Shown one piece after another: positions 43,294-48,388 of a stretch of 64,000 nt of DNA (positions are counted from its first letter, which is position 1; each line of letters opens with the position of its first letter). Position numbers and translations under genes: made by a program. Source of the stretch: Salegentibacter agarivorans (GTDB lineage Bacteria > Bacteroidota > Bacteroidia > Flavobacteriales > Flavobacteriaceae); contig NZ_FOOH01000020.1 in assembly GCF_900113135.1 (NCBI RefSeq), forward strand, positions 1 through 64,000, written 5' to 3'. The notes beneath the pieces are model-generated. The model saw only the letters and a list, made by a program, of their open reading frames with translations, was not told the DNA's origin and searched no databases.

Positions 43294-43956
43294 ATATATT
43301 TATTTAGTTGAAAACGATAACCAGAATTCTCCAATCCGATTCCTCCTATTACATTCAAGTCTAGCTTACTTGTAGGTAAAAGAAGAATGAAATAGTTATT
43401 AAAAAATTAGTTTTATAGCTTGTGATCTTTTATTGGATAAGCTAAATTTTGTAAAAAATTTAGCTTAGATAAACAGTGGGAAATCACATTAAACAATATT
43501 TAATATTAAGTTAACAGATTTATTAGGAAATGAATATATAAATATTATTTCTAAATAAATGTACCTCATACATTTTTTTTCATTTTTTTAGAAAATTCTT
43601 ACTATAATCAAATTTCACCTAAAAAATTTTTAATAAAAAAAACAGGATAGCTTTACCGAAATTTCATTCTGTTGTCAGGGAATAAAGAGAAATTTATAAA
43701 ACTCAAGTTTTGGAAGAAAAACGAAAATTAGTTCTGGTAATAATATAAAGCGATAGATTGTTTTCCAACCTAATTCTAACCGCTTTTAATGTGAATTACA
43801 AAATTTGCTTGTAGGTTCAAATCAGATTTAGCGCTGTTCACTGCTCCAAACTTAAAAAATTTGACAATTGAGGAAGGCTATTAGTTAGTCAAAAAAAAGG
43901 GTTTTTTGATTCACCATCTTCTGGTAATATTAAATTCATAAAGTATATGAAAAATA
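43294..43956. other. Gene-free upstream region of the SusCD/DUF1080 operon
   Basis: No gene is seen in about 660 bp of very AT-rich DNA. It includes the perfect 12-bp inverted repeat at 43438-43467, described separately, and an A-run/T-run hairpin (TCAAAAAA ... TTTTTTGA) near 43890. I did not find an exact TAnnTTTG box on the minus strand near the operon start. Confidence 0.4.
43438..43467. promoter_or_regulatory. Perfect 12-bp inverted repeat upstream of the operon
   Basis: TAAGCTAAATTT (43438-43449) and AAATTTAGCTTA (43456-43467) are exact reverse complements around a six-base spacer. The site lies 145 bp upstream of the first gene of the SusCD operon. No T-run follows, so an operator or an mRNA leader stem is more likely than a terminator. 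Confidence 0.45.
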
Positions 43957-43984
43957 AAAACCTTTCCGCGAACGGAAAGGTTTT
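43957..43984. terminator. Strong tetraloop hairpin terminator
   Basis: AAAACCTTTCCG (43957-43968), loop CGAA and CGGAAAGGTTTT (43973-43984) form a perfect 12-bp stem whose ends supply A and U tracts in both directions. On the minus strand it ends the candidate transcript that starts near 44427 and carries the 49-codon ORF. No plus-strand gene precedes it. Confidence 0.75.
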
Positions 43985-44111
43985 AAAATTAATCCGAAAA
44001 CATATTCTTTATGCTTAACACCTAAGTATTCCTATCCCCAAATAAAAATACTTAAAAAACATGCATCGAATTAATCCCCAAATTATATCGTCAAAAAGTT
44101 TCTAGCTCTAT

Positions 44112-44261
44112 CTACTTAATTATGCTACTAAACTTATCTTTTAGTGATTTTTCATATTTGTTATAATTAATTAAATATACCTGCTCCTCTAAAAGAGCCT
44201 TCTCTCTCCATGTGAGAGAATTTGGTAATTCGTTAGTTCGCCCCATTTTTTTAAGATTCAT
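44112..44261 (-). CDS. 49-residue small protein of a candidate LytTR-controlled transcript
   Basis: An ATG at 44261 opens 49 codons to TAG 44114-44112. The product is hydrophilic and charged, starts MNLKKMGRTNELPNSLTWRE, and continues with a helix-prone EKALLEEQVYLINYNKYEKS part; it has no signal peptide or membrane segment. I do not recognise it. It lies between an exact TAnnTTTG box (44434-44441, minus strand) fed by three LytTR-type sites and a strong terminator at 43957-43984, so it is positioned as the only ORF of a short transcript. The untranslated leader would be long (about 165 nt), so an RNA product is an alternative. Confidence 0.45.
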   Translation of the reverse strand: MNLKKMGRTNELPNSLTWREKALLEEQVYLINYNKYEKSLKDKFSSIIK

Positions 44262-44433
44262 TATTAATTAGAGAATATCTTCTCTATACATTCAATAGAT
44301 GTGAAGTCTTCGCTCTACATCTTCTAATTTAATCCTAAACAATGTTCATAATAATTTGAGTAACTTTTCGAATATCCCAGGTATTACTTATTTTATCAAT
44401 GACTATTTTTAGTTGAATATTTACGCTTCCCGT

Positions 44434-44441
44434 CAAAAGTA
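44434..44441 (-). promoter_or_regulatory. Minus-strand -7 box downstream of the LytTR-type sites
   Basis: The minus strand reads TACTTTTG, an exact TAnnTTTG. Transcription would start near 44427 and run left into the 49-codon ORF. No good -33 TTTG is present at the expected distance; instead the nearest LytTR-type site ends 31 bp upstream, as expected for an activator-dependent promoter. Confidence 0.45.
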
Positions 44442-44472
44442 GAAAAGATGCAGAAAGGATTAAAAAAAATGT

Positions 44473-44525
44473 CGTGAACGGCCACTTTTTTGTCGTGAAC
44501 GAGTTTTTTAAGCATAATGAACGTA
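44473..44525 (-). promoter_or_regulatory. Three direct-repeat LytTR-type binding sites
   Basis: The 11-mer TGTCGTGAACG occurs at 44470-44480 and 44491-44501, exactly 21 bp apart, with a partial third copy (TGAACG at 44518-44523) 22 bp further. Read on the minus strand, the three sites (44473-44482, 44494-44503, 44516-44525) are GCCGTTCACG, CTCGTTCACG and TACGTTCATT. They match 9, 8 and 9 of 10 positions of the LytTR consensus [TA][AC][CA]GTTN[AG][TC]G. A spacing of two helical turns is typical of LytTR regulators. Their centres would be near -50, -71 and -93 of the leftward start. A LytTR regulator gene lies 3.2 kb to the right. Confidence 0.6.
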
Positions 44526-44653: not shown

Positions 44654-44661
44654 TACATTTG
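44654..44661 (+). promoter_or_regulatory. -7 box of the sensor kinase gene
   Basis: TACATTTG matches TAnnTTTG exactly and ends 24 bp before the TTG start codon. No -33 TTTG is seen at the usual distance. Confidence 0.45.
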
Positions 44662-44685: not shown

Positions 44686-47600
44686 TTGAAAAACTTATTT
44701 GCTGTATTCATTTTCCTTTTTTCAGTTGCACTTTGGTGTCAAGAAGATAATTCTCTATTAGTTAGTAAAAATACCTTTTCATTTAGAGATGGTTATTTAA
44801 TCTCCAATTCCTTCCACTCTATCTACGATACTAACGGATGGCTATGGATTTTAGGCGAGAATAAACTTTCAAACGAATATATTTTAGGAGAGCAGGAAAT
44901 TATTATTCAACGTTTTGATGGGGCTAATTTCTTCACCTTGAAATTACCTGATACTTTTAATAAAAAGATTAAAGAAGGTCATTTCTTTAAAAGTCAGGAC
45001 CACGGACTTTATCTAAAATTATCTTACGAGGTTGCTCGAGCTGAATTATTTTATATCAACACAGAAACCTTAACGCTTAAAGCTGTCAAAGAATATAATA
45101 AGCTTAACGCAAACTTTTTAATTTCAAAAGCCTACACTGCTCAAGATTCAAGCCCTATTGTTCTTACGTCAAACAATAAATTTTATAGTGCCAAACTTGA
45201 TAAGTTAAAATTAAGGTTTATTGATTCTATTCCTTTTGAAAAACCGGTTGCTCAACCGGTGCTGGATGATCCAATCACAATGGATGACTTTACCCTGATA
45301 AAATTACAAACCGAAAAAGAGGGCGTTTTTCTGAATAAGGAGGGAAAGTTCATAAAAAAAATAGCCGAAAGTGATTTTGAAGCCACAAATGGAATTAATT
45401 TTTATCCAACGATAATACAGCCCCCATTTAAAGTCAGTGATGCCTTTTACACCTATATTGATAACTATAAGAATGCTTTCAAATTCAATAAAGAATTTAA
45501 AAAATTCTTAGAAATACCTCATACTGATAGTGTTCTAGGCGGAAATAAAAAACTGCAGTTTACTTCAGGTTTCAACTATGCCTTTTCCACTGAAATTGAT
45601 GGAGACTTCACAGCAATGGAGTTATATCGCCTTAAAGATTTTCAAAAGGAGTTATTTACTACAATTAAAGTAAAAAATATATCAGGAATTGCTTACAAGG
45701 ATTTTGGAAAAGACCTGGTAATACTCGACGGAAACACCTTAGATTCCTATTCTTTTATTAAAAGTAAAATCAAAACTTTTTTAAAAGATAAAAGCATCCG
45801 TTCAATTAAAAAGTTAAAGGAAAACAAGTATATCATAGCAACAGATACAGAGGGGCTTTACAAGATCGACGTAAAAAAAAATACAGAAGAACGAATAAAA
45901 ATTCTATCCGATGCTACCAAGCTGAACATTAATTACTCCCGGGGTATTTTCAATGGAACAGACAACAATCTTATAATTGCAAACTCTGATTATCTATATA
46001 CCCTGGATTCAAATTATGAGGTAATTCAGGACAAAACGATAAAAATACATAGTGGAATAATTATAAAACTAAAAGACAGCCTATTTACGGCAGATCCAGG
46101 AAGTGGAATTTATAAATACAGTCTTAATGAAAATAGCTATACTAAAATTGCAAATACCGAGGTTGTACAAGTAAAGGAATTTGCTACAGATGGCACCACC
46201 CTCTTTGCAAACACTGGCCAGGGAATTTTTGAATACAAAAACGGCAACTTTAATACCTATACATTTGAAAATGTAGAAACAGATCACTTGCTATCTATAA
46301 ACTATCTGCAAGATTATGGCATTCTGGTTTCCACAAAGTTCGGGGAAATTTATACATTCGATACCACAACTAAAAAATTAAATCTGCTTTATAAAGATGC
46401 ATTAAATGCATCCATTGTTGGGATGGTTGAAGATCACAATGGTATTTTATGGTTAAATACCTATGCCGGGATTGTATCCTTAAACCCATCTTCAAAAAAA
46501 ATTATTAGATATACTACAAAAGATGGCGTTTATGAGCTAGAAGGCAATAGGTTTAGCACCTATAAAGATGAACAGGATGGCAGTATTTTAATGGGAAGTA
46601 ATAAAGGTCTTAGCTATTTTAAGCCAGATGAATTAGTTGAAAATAATTTAAAAGCACAACCTCAATTTACTTCTATCTCATTTTTTAATTCAGAAAACGA
46701 TCGCTGGGAAGTTAACACTTCTCCAGACTTTTTAAATAATACTCGCAAGATTGATTTGCCTTCAGAATACAGAAGATTTTCTGCAACACTCTCTGTTTTT
46801 GGACAGCTAAACCCTCAGGATATTAAGTACCGGTATCGTTTATTAAATATCGGAAGTAACTCAGACTGGTTTACTACCTACGCTGGTAAAGAAATTTTAT
46901 TCGCAAATCTGGCAGCAGGAGTTTATAATTTAGAAGTTGAAGCCTACAGTGCTTCTAAAGAAAAGATAGGAGAAACGATTGTACTAAAAGTAATTTCTAA
47001 AGAAGTTTTTTATAAAACCTGGTGGTTTATTTTATTGATTCTATTTTTTGTTGTCATTTCTGTTCTGTTTCTATTTTATCAATATAAAGTAAAACAGAAA
47101 TTATTTGCAAAAAATAAAATTGCATTGAACGAAGCGCAAATTAAAAATACTATGATGTTAGAAATTCATCATAGAATTAAGAATAATCTTCAAATTGTTT
47201 CCGGGCTATTAGGTTTGCAAATGGCAAACAGTAAAAATGAAGAATTAAAAGTAAAATTACAGGATAGCCAAAGCAGGATCGAGTCTATCGCCGGTATTCA
47301 TGACCTGTTATATAATTCAAGCAACCAGGATCTTATTTCTGTTAAAGAAAATATAGAAAGCTGTGTTGCTTATTACAAAAAGCTTTTTCCTACTAATATT
47401 ACGTATCATCTAAATATTGACAGTTCCATTTTAAGCGTCACTCAAGCCACCCCTTTTTCACTTTTATTAAATGAACTAATAAATAACTCAAATAAACACG
47501 CTTTTCATCAAACCAAGAATCCCGAAATATTTATAAATTTTCAGCAGCGGGATAAAAAGTATGTATTTATTTATTTTGACAATGGTAATTTTACCCAACA

Positions 47601-47727
47601 GGCAACCCAGAAACAAACTATGGGTATGAAAATTATAGGAATGATGAACAAGCAATTGAAAGGAGAATTAAAGATTGAAAACACTACTAATTTTAAATTA
47701 ACCTTACTTTTTTCGAAAAATGAATAG
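44686..47727 (+). CDS. LytS-like sensor histidine kinase with a large extracytoplasmic domain
   Basis: The protein has 1013 residues. TTG at 44686 is chosen because the signal peptide (KNLFAVFIFLFSVALWCQ) starts right there and no ATG is available. Residues 20-660 look like a periplasmic two-component propeller (repeated strands such as GIFEYKNGNF, GILWLNTYAGIVSLNP). A Y_Y_Y domain follows at about 690-765 (KYRYRLLNIGSNSDWF, LAAGVYNLEVEA), then one membrane helix (779-801). The HisKA_2 domain has H828/H829 in EIHHRIKNNLQ, and the HATPase domain has N-box LLNELINNSNKHAF and FDNG; the ATP lid is short. The regulator gene overlaps its end by 8 bp. Confidence 0.88.
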   Translation: MKNLFAVFIFLFSVALWCQEDNSLLVSKNTFSFRDGYLISNSFHSIYDTNGWLWILGENKLSNEYILGEQEIIIQRFDGANFFTLKLPDTFNKKIKEGHFFKSQDHGLYLKLSYEVARAELFYINTETLTLKAVKEYNKLNANFLISKAYTAQDSSPIVLTSNNKFYSAKLDKLKLRFIDSIPFEKPVAQPVLDDPITMDDFTLIKLQTEKEGVFLNKEGKFIKKIAESDFEATNGINFYPTIIQPPFKVSDAFYTYIDNYKNAFKFNKEFKKFLEIPHTDSVLGGNKKLQFTSGFNYAFSTEIDGDFTAMELYRLKDFQKELFTTIKVKNISGIAYKDFGKDLVILDGNTLDSYSFIKSKIKTFLKDKSIRSIKKLKENKYIIATDTEGLYKIDVKKNTEERIKILSDATKLNINYSRGIFNGTDNNLIIANSDYLYTLDSNYEVIQDKTIKIHSGIIIKLKDSLFTADPGSGIYKYSLNENSYTKIANTEVVQVKEFATDGTTLFANTGQGIFEYKNGNFNTYTFENVETDHLLSINYLQDYGILVSTKFGEIYTFDTTTKKLNLLYKDALNASIVGMVEDHNGILWLNTYAGIVSLNPSSKKIIRYTTKDGVYELEGNRFSTYKDEQDGSILMGSNKGLSYFKPDELVENNLKAQPQFTSISFFNSENDRWEVNTSPDFLNNTRKIDLPSEYRRFSATLSVFGQLNPQDIKYRYRLLNIGSNSDWFTTYAGKEILFANLAAGVYNLEVEAYSASKEKIGETIVLKVISKEVFYKTWWFILLILFFVVISVLFLFYQYKVKQKLFAKNKIALNEAQIKNTMMLEIHHRIKNNLQIVSGLLGLQMANSKNEELKVKLQDSQSRIESIAGIHDLLYNSSNQDLISVKENIESCVAYYKKLFPTNITYHLNIDSSILSVTQATPFSLLLNELINNSNKHAFHQTKNPEIFINFQQRDKKYVFIYFDNGNFTQQATQKQTMGMKIIGMMNKQLKGELKIENTTNFKLTLLFSKNE

Positions 47728-48388
47728 CATAAAAATCTATATTTTAGAAGATGAAATAATAACCCAGGAGCTTCTAAAACAGACGTTGGAGGATTTAGGT
47801 TTTAAAATTTGTGGGATGGCAACAAATGCAGAAACCGCACTCGCCGAGATTGCCCTTTTAAAACCAGATATTGCTATTTTAGATATTAGAGTAGAAGGCC
47901 CGCAGACAGGGATATGGTTAGGGAACCAGTTAGATATTCCTCTCATCTATTTAACAGCTTTTAATGATGTAGAGACCATAAAAAAAGCAATTGCTACAAC
48001 ACCAACAAGTTACCTGGTAAAACCCCTTAATAATAAGGATTTATATATTGCTGTTGAATTAGCTGTAAGTAAAATAAAAAATAAGGCGCAAATAATAGTA
48101 AAGGATAAAGACAAAAAAATCATCCTTTCTGAAGATCAGATTTTATATGCAAAGAAAGAAGATCAATATCTAATATTACATTTAAAAGATTCTGAAAAAT
48201 TAATAAGGTCCAGTATTAAAGATTTTTTAGAACAAATGAATTCTCCATCATTTTTGCAAGTGCATCGTTCTTATGTAATCAATAAAGACTGTGTTACTGC
48301 ATTTAATAGCAAAGAAATAATTATTAATAACAGCCGCATTCCCATATCAAAAAGCTATGCTAAAGAAATTTTAGAAGAAATTTCTTAA
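47720..48388 (+). CDS. LytTR-type response regulator
   Basis: This 222-residue protein has an N-terminal receiver domain with acidic E10/D11 and phosphoacceptor D55 (IAILDIRVEG), conserved T/A in LIYLTAFND and K in YLVKPL. A C-terminal LytTR DNA-binding domain covers about residues 120-222 (EDQILYAKKEDQYLILHL, FLQVHRSYVINKDCVTAF, IPISKSYAKEIL). It is the partner of the kinase whose end it overlaps. LytTR regulators bind direct repeats two helical turns apart, exactly what is seen at 44473-44525. Confidence 0.92.
   Translation: MNSIKIYILEDEIITQELLKQTLEDLGFKICGMATNAETALAEIALLKPDIAILDIRVEGPQTGIWLGNQLDIPLIYLTAFNDVETIKKAIATTPTSYLVKPLNNKDLYIAVELAVSKIKNKAQIIVKDKDKKIILSEDQILYAKKEDQYLILHLKDSEKLIRSSIKDFLEQMNSPSFLQVHRSYVINKDCVTAFNSKEIIINNSRIPISKSYAKEILEEIS

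Follow-up and report, generated by a model that had tools for sequence, protein, structure and literature searches.

Regulatory RNAs switched by LytTR-type response regulators are well known in Firmicutes pathogens, where RgaR is one regulator with a LytTR domain and where the targets of VirR are located elsewhere in the genome. The AgrA-RNAIII system of Staphylococcus aureus combines a LytTR regulator, two direct repeats and a divergent promoter beside the two-component genes with a short RNA, RNAIII, which also encodes the small protein delta-hemolysin, and the AgrA repeats nearest the promoter have their centre at about -60 (PMC4227749). In Clostridioides difficile, the 528-nt RNA SpoZ is directly activated by RgaS/RgaR via VirR-like direct repeats and, in the VirS/VirR system of Clostridium perfringens, VirR activates the small regulatory RNAs VR-RNA, VirT and VirU (PMC10602386). 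Equally, conserved structured regulatory RNAs occur in the Flavobacteriaceae, as exemplified by Rfp18 and other sRNAs of Flavobacterium psychrophilum, although the term 'LytTR' does not appear in the main text of that report (PMC9723704). A LytTR-switched RNA unit of the Bacteroidota was not seen among the papers listed by searches of the open-access literature, which does not prove its absence.

A candidate for such a unit lies in Salegentibacter agarivorans, in a stretch of 64,000 nucleotides called the window in the following, where a 1392-bp intergenic gap is flanked by a 3-keto-disaccharide hydrolase-family gene (43293-42475) and a kinase gene (44686, plus strand). On the minus strand of this gap two GTTCACGAC repeats, a TACTTTTG box, a small ORF and a terminator follow each other (44500-43957; Table 1), so that, as far as can be read from sequence, a short terminated transcription unit stands directly behind LytTR-type sites. 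The original prediction had named repeats, box, ORF and a 12-bp tetraloop terminator at 43984-43957, all of which were recovered in place, the terminator with a TTCG loop; a conserved folded element between ORF and terminator had been missed. We consider it likely that the gap harbours a LytTR-switched transcript of about 480 nt, which probably has a dual function as messenger and regulatory RNA. Where a 49-residue protein or, alternatively, an RNA had been proposed as the product, both together now appear probable because the folded 3' element is conserved too, with the protein shortened to 44 aa.

Table 1. Features of the predicted unit and its surroundings; positions refer to the window unless another stretch (L number) is named
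Feature	Position	Strand	Remark
LytTR-type site 1 (distal), GTTCACGAC	44492..44500	-	G at about -71
LytTR-type site 2 (proximal), GTTCACGAC	44471..44479	-	G at about -50; period 21
Third repeat, GTTCATTAT	44514..44522	-	present in window; period 22 to site 1
-7 promoter box, TACTTTTG	44434..44441	-	predicted +1 at 44429
Predicted short transcript, about 480 nt	43950..44429	-	from box and terminator; limits inferred
Small ORF, 44 aa from ATG 44246	44112..44246	-	one long helix predicted
3' RNA element: basal stem, inner stems, UUGGGGA hairpin (44041-44035)	43985..44079	-	
Intrinsic terminator: 12 bp, TTCG loop, T-rich tail	43957..43984	-	
Divergent sensor histidine kinase, 1013 aa, TTG start	44686..47727	+	HisKA_2, Y_Y_Y-like part
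Response regulator, 222 aa, LytTR DNA-binding domain	47720..48388	+	PF00072, PF04397
-7-like box before kinase gene, TACATTTG	44654..44661	+	
Module before giant-protein genes	L026 7107-6519; L027 11557-13595; L029 7163-7071	-; +; -	

The two-component genes that face the unit differ in part from what had been expected. The kinase matches HisKA_2 (8.9e-22) and, with 26.3 bits just below the cut-off of 26.6, Y_Y_Y, and is therefore not of the LytS type assigned to it by the original prediction; PF06580 (His_kinase), which we take to be the LytS kinase domain, is absent among its Pfam matches up to E 0.1, and the LytS label was rejected on these domain matches. The gene beside it does encode a LytTR regulator, as claimed, with PF00072 (1.2e-13) and PF04397 (5e-17) both present, and the same two domains were identified in four regulators of the related genomes G014, G011 and G009.

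Divergent from the same kinase gene, the unit was found in five further copies, in G009 (twice), G011, G014 and a Gillisia MAG, which together with the window gives a set of six copies from five genomes. Kinase, divergent array, TA(C/T)TTT box at 29 bp and small ORF are united in all six loci, and the LytTR regulator gene is seen in five, the contig of the sixth, the MAG, ending inside the kinase. Conservation of the repeats in relatives with the kinase/regulator pair, on which the original prediction had made itself dependent, is thus borne out, except that two repeats and not three are conserved. In a kinase search which covered 60 genomes, 15 of them from the genus of the window (its own included), four of the genus genomes (own, G009, G011 and G014) carry the kinase (E <= 1e-50). 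The same four carry the small ORF (E <= 1.3e-14; two copies in G009), weak matches in four of the kinase-less genus genomes (E 0.15 to 0.57) being taken for chance, and equally the exact array pattern with a single box, which was found in none of the 11 genus genomes that lack the kinase; the exact matches in G011 are those of a giant-gene array and not of its small-unit array. The Gillisia MAG (L008; Gillisia belongs to the Flavobacteriaceae, Bacteroidota) was the only relative to emerge from one scan of named genomes, with 52% identity to the 49-residue ORF and with array, box, ORF, foldable 3' end, terminator and divergent kinase all present. A profile of the small protein matched once among 397 sampled genomes of the family, in the own genome, and once among 16 genomes from the genus closest to the MAG, in G445, which is probably the same record as L008; viral contigs searched with one protein gave no match. 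Across these genomes the distribution is narrow and patchy, like that of a cassette, and the co-occurrence of kinase and unit is explicable by one linked cassette without regulation.

The two loci of G009 have been affected by mobile elements. Four identical Mutator-family transposase genes are present (L028 11573-12811 and 14013-15251; L029 7265-8503 and 11559-12797), of which one sits within the 3' RNA element of G009b, another within the other copy's kinase and a third between the small unit and a giant gene. In the copy other than G009b, the kinase is interrupted by a transposase and the small unit is whole, whereas in G009b the kinase is whole and the 3' RNA element is split by insertion of the same element, an arrangement which fits action in trans without proving anything.

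Expressed as mean pairwise identity in an alignment of the six copies, conservation is 0.84 from array to box, 0.80 in the ORF and 0.70 in the 3' element, with 0.50 in the stretch upstream of the array, 0.37 and 45% gaps in the 5' leader and 0.53 and 36% gaps in the terminator, the last figure being depressed in part by the split copy and by pieces that end in this stretch. Promoter and ORF are hence conserved islands, separated by a 5' leader that is not conserved. All nine arrays consist of direct repeats with a spacing of about two helical turns, placed upstream of a promoter box, six of small units and three before giant genes, each with a period of 21 and 29 bp from site 2 to TA(C/T)TTT when single-base variants were allowed in each site of the search pattern. 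Both GTTCACGAC sites are exact in five of the six small-unit loci, the small-unit array of G011 having three mismatches, and the full TAHHTTTG box is present in five of nine arrays, whereas the boxes of G009b and of all three promoters ahead of giant genes are one base off. All of the three LytTR-type repeats originally described, with periods of 22 and 21, exist in the window, but the distal one is retained in none of the other five copies in the alignment and, without such conservation, was rejected as a component of the unit. Equally, a minus-strand box does follow the nearest site, but at 29 bp from the 9-mer, the 31 bp given earlier counting from a shorter site. The consensus of the box and its span of -12 to -5 are taken from the -7 element reported for Flavobacterium johnsoniae (PMC6847099), and this placement yields the predicted start and the positions of the G bases in Table 1.

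The gap contains exactly repeated 9-mers that have four or more G/C and are spaced 19-23 bp apart, as do 3 of 2000 dinucleotide shuffles. LytTR consensus pairs with up to two mismatches occur 65 times on the minus and 70 times on the plus strand of the window and with up to one mismatch not at all, and the loose consensus was consequently rejected as proof, lacking specificity in a window as AT-rich as the present one; GTTCACGAC with up to one mismatch is also near background (5 found versus 3.54 expected, 26 of 100 shuffles having as many). The case for the unit rests on conservation, as the consensus by itself is without power here. That the unit might be a remnant or a product of chance, degenerate intergenic DNA with coincidental motifs, would agree with the abundance of loose matches and with the split of G009b by an insertion, but is contradicted by the conservation of six copies with their islands in the genus and in the Gillisia MAG, and is scarcely credible. 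Further targets elsewhere in the genomes do not stand out: with up to three mismatches, 20 arrays were counted in the 15 genomes, eight of them at these loci, versus 51 for a reversed control. Among 397 family genomes, the array pattern matched in two, the own genome and G138 from another genus, in which TTCACGACATTTTTTTGATTTCACGACATTT repeats precede a subtilase gene (L024 1494-1531); with a period of 19 and no box seen at 29 bp, this array was treated as unrelated.

As the array and the kinase start, 186 bp apart, share one divergent gap, the repeats might conceivably be autoregulatory sites of the kinase operon with the minus-strand transcript being incidental. Such an origin of the unit is very improbable, since in all six loci the orientation of the repeats and the 29-bp spacing point away from the kinase and since the kinase has its own TACATTTG box, situated 32-35 bases before the listed kinase start in five of six loci and 76 bases before it in the Gillisia MAG; in addition, three loci have the same module ahead of giant genes on the far side of the unit.

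The open frame of the transcript, 44-52 codons long, is found in all six copies. The 49-codon ORF described for 44261-44112 is indeed open in the window, but the ATG at 44261 is matched only in G014, whereas the ATG at 44246, 15 bases later, is present in six of six copies, each time with A at -3, and probably is the start, which gives 44 aa. In a core of 27 codons (SL(S/T)W to EKSLK) compared over all six copies with the ends dropped, the synonymous share of the codon differences is 0.44 against a shuffle mean of 0.25, with 23 of 2000 shuffles as high when variable columns were permuted among columns sharing the same window base. Also, dN/dS is below 1 in all 14 defined pairs out of 15, the third codon position is biased, stops do not occur in the core and indels between ATG and core comprise whole codons (9 bases in G011, 3 bases in the MAG). 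The evidence that the core changes like a protein is moderate, because G009b and the MAG show no synonymous difference in it and the frame of G009b is shifted after the core by a one-base deletion. If the locus gave rise solely to a LytTR-controlled regulatory RNA, with the ORF open by chance or as a conserved RNA segment, one might expect the ORF region to be conserved in nucleotides, the C-terminal ends to vary in length among the copies, and in frame in G009b, and the protein to match no family, all of which is the case; third-position bias, synonymous excess (23/2000), stop-free core, whole-codon indels and the conserved ATG with its A at -3 nevertheless make an RNA without protein decidedly unlikely. 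For the predicted 44-aa protein, AlphaFold2 with the six-row alignment proposes one helix over residues 13-43 (mean pLDDT 85, pTM 0.48). No family of Pfam or NCBIfam matches it up to E 0.1, and two matches in a PDB profile search (E 0.09 and 0.35) were taken as noise. An amphipathic nature of the helix was unsupported, with 2622 of 5000 shuffles as high.

The fold of the 3' element that follows the ORF comprises a basal stem of about 13 pairs, inner stems and a hairpin with UUGGGG in the loop, the folding z-scores of all five unsplit elements being -5.0 to -8.0 with the terminator included. Two GGGG runs are kept in six of six copies, the second one as UUGGGGA in five and as UUGGGGU in the MAG. 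Because the insertion splits its 3' element, G009b was excluded from the RNA fold, the model and the pair counts, which are based on five of the six copies. Standard pairs make up 93.9% of the pair cells on the alignment and five cells have both sides changed, each value being reached by 0 of 500 shuffles, while the three pairs with double changes were reached by 98 of 500 shuffles and the further pair types amount to 14 versus 14.1 in shuffles; these covariation counts refer to a structure derived from the same alignment that was used for the test. Energy and retained pairing support the fold, covariation does so only weakly, and the terminator shows one A-U to C-G double change versus the relatives. 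A covariance model recovered this locus in the same four genus genomes (E < 1e-22) and, at E 3.9e-6, part of the G009b copy that is split; with 150 of about 900-2,900 candidates per genome scored, the remaining matches in all 15 genomes have E >= 0.0036 and were treated as background. A search of the whole window against Rfam at gathering scores gave no match, homology to RNAIII included.

On the other hand, the transcript might be nothing but a LytTR-controlled gene for a small protein, with the 3' fold as an elaborate terminator or stabiliser. The coding-type substitutions, the A at -3, the position of the terminator at the very end and the weak covariation would be in line with such a gene, but the fold and both GGGG runs of the 95-nt element persist as far as the MAG although a plain terminator needs neither, and a protein without regulatory RNA is accordingly regarded as possible but improbable. 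The dual-function transcript, which would make use of both conserved parts, remains the preferred explanation.

In three of the six loci, those of G014, G011 and the first copy of G009, the promoter module occurs a second time beyond the small unit, and the gene behind it encodes a giant protein whose repeat domains are HYR, lectin, MBG or others (Table 1), the proteins having at least 1802 to 2357 residues as their genes run past the end of the stretch. From site 2 to the listed start of the giant gene there are 72 bases in G009 and about 570 in G014, an AraC-type gene stands between second module and giant gene in G011, and G014 and G011 have about 60 nt in common after the box and differ beyond. 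Adjoining the unit, a giant gene was not seen in the window, in the second copy of G009 and in the MAG. Since the same module precedes a giant adhesin-type protein in some relatives, the system most likely controls the cell surface. Pairing of the transcript with the leader of the giant gene was considered and dropped as inconsistent over the three genomes, since with the whole transcript G011 was the one genome in which most shuffles were beaten (1 of 200 as low), and with its last 150 nt this was G014 (4 of 200). In the Gillisia MAG, a 121-aa ORF beyond the small unit (L008 3372-3737) has, judged by eye, a cysteine-rich part and a C-terminal hydrophobic stretch.

Distant relatives of the kinase, with 25-29% identity, were detected in 11 genomes besides the own among 397 (L052-L062). 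The regulators next to them are of the LuxR type (GerE) in 11 of 11 cases, and the neighbouring gene has a HYR domain in six; four other stretches have neighbours that look secreted by eye and have no Pfam match, and L061 has neither a secreted-looking nor a HYR neighbour. GTTCA-type pairs occur in none of these 11 stretches, and TACGTA-type repeats occur in four (L055, L056, L061 and L062). The kinase lineage may thus be one that regulates surface adhesins; within the present genus, control would have passed to a regulator of LytTR type, which has sites of its own and for which the small transcript would be the target always present. Kinase and target may have been retained while regulator class and binding site were exchanged.

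From the arrangement and conservation of the parts we infer the following course of events. The kinase would phosphorylate its LytTR partner, which would then bind the two direct repeats 21 bp apart on the minus strand, at about -71 and -50, and recruit RNA polymerase to the TACTTTTG promoter. Transcription from around 44429 to the terminator at 43957 would yield an RNA of about 480 nt, encoding the 44-aa helical protein and ending in the folded element with its UUGGGG loop, with protein and RNA each having a function of its own. In some relatives, the same module would also switch on the adjacent giant adhesin-type repeat protein, the small transcript being the constant, dedicated output of the system.

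Set against the described systems, the unit has its own characteristics. Unlike AgrA-RNAIII, it belongs to another phylum, has a HisKA_2/Y_Y_Y-like kinase and an array facing one promoter only, and finds no match in Rfam; AgrB and AgrD were not recognised by eye among the ORFs of at least 40 aa between 38 and 50 kb. Phylum and kinase equally differ from VirS/VirR. The key G bases of spoZ at -72 and -51 are close to the -71 and -50 predicted here, whereas RgaS and RgaR are orphans and a 58-aa ORF lies antisense and downstream of spoZ, not inside it (PMC10602386). A conserved counterpart in the Bacteroidota, if true, would imply that circuits so designed emerged, or have spread, far outside the Firmicutes, and would add new families of a small protein and of an RNA as well as a LytTR regulon in which site, spacing and promoter are defined for its one or two targets, while the geometry of period 21 followed by 29 bp might serve as a search rule for dedicated LytTR targets in unannotated DNA. 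More tentatively, and with doubts prevailing, the unit may represent the first RNAIII-like dual-function RNA of the Bacteroidota, of which the 44-aa helical protein and the UUGGGG-hairpin tail would both act, one of them tuning a co-switched giant surface adhesin, in a kinase lineage that would have kept its adhesin target and changed its partner from LuxR-type to LytTR-type, with the sites changing to match. With a protein and an RNA that match no family searched and with a kinase of a different type, the unit resembles in its predicted design RNAIII, VR-RNA and SpoZ, all of the Firmicutes.
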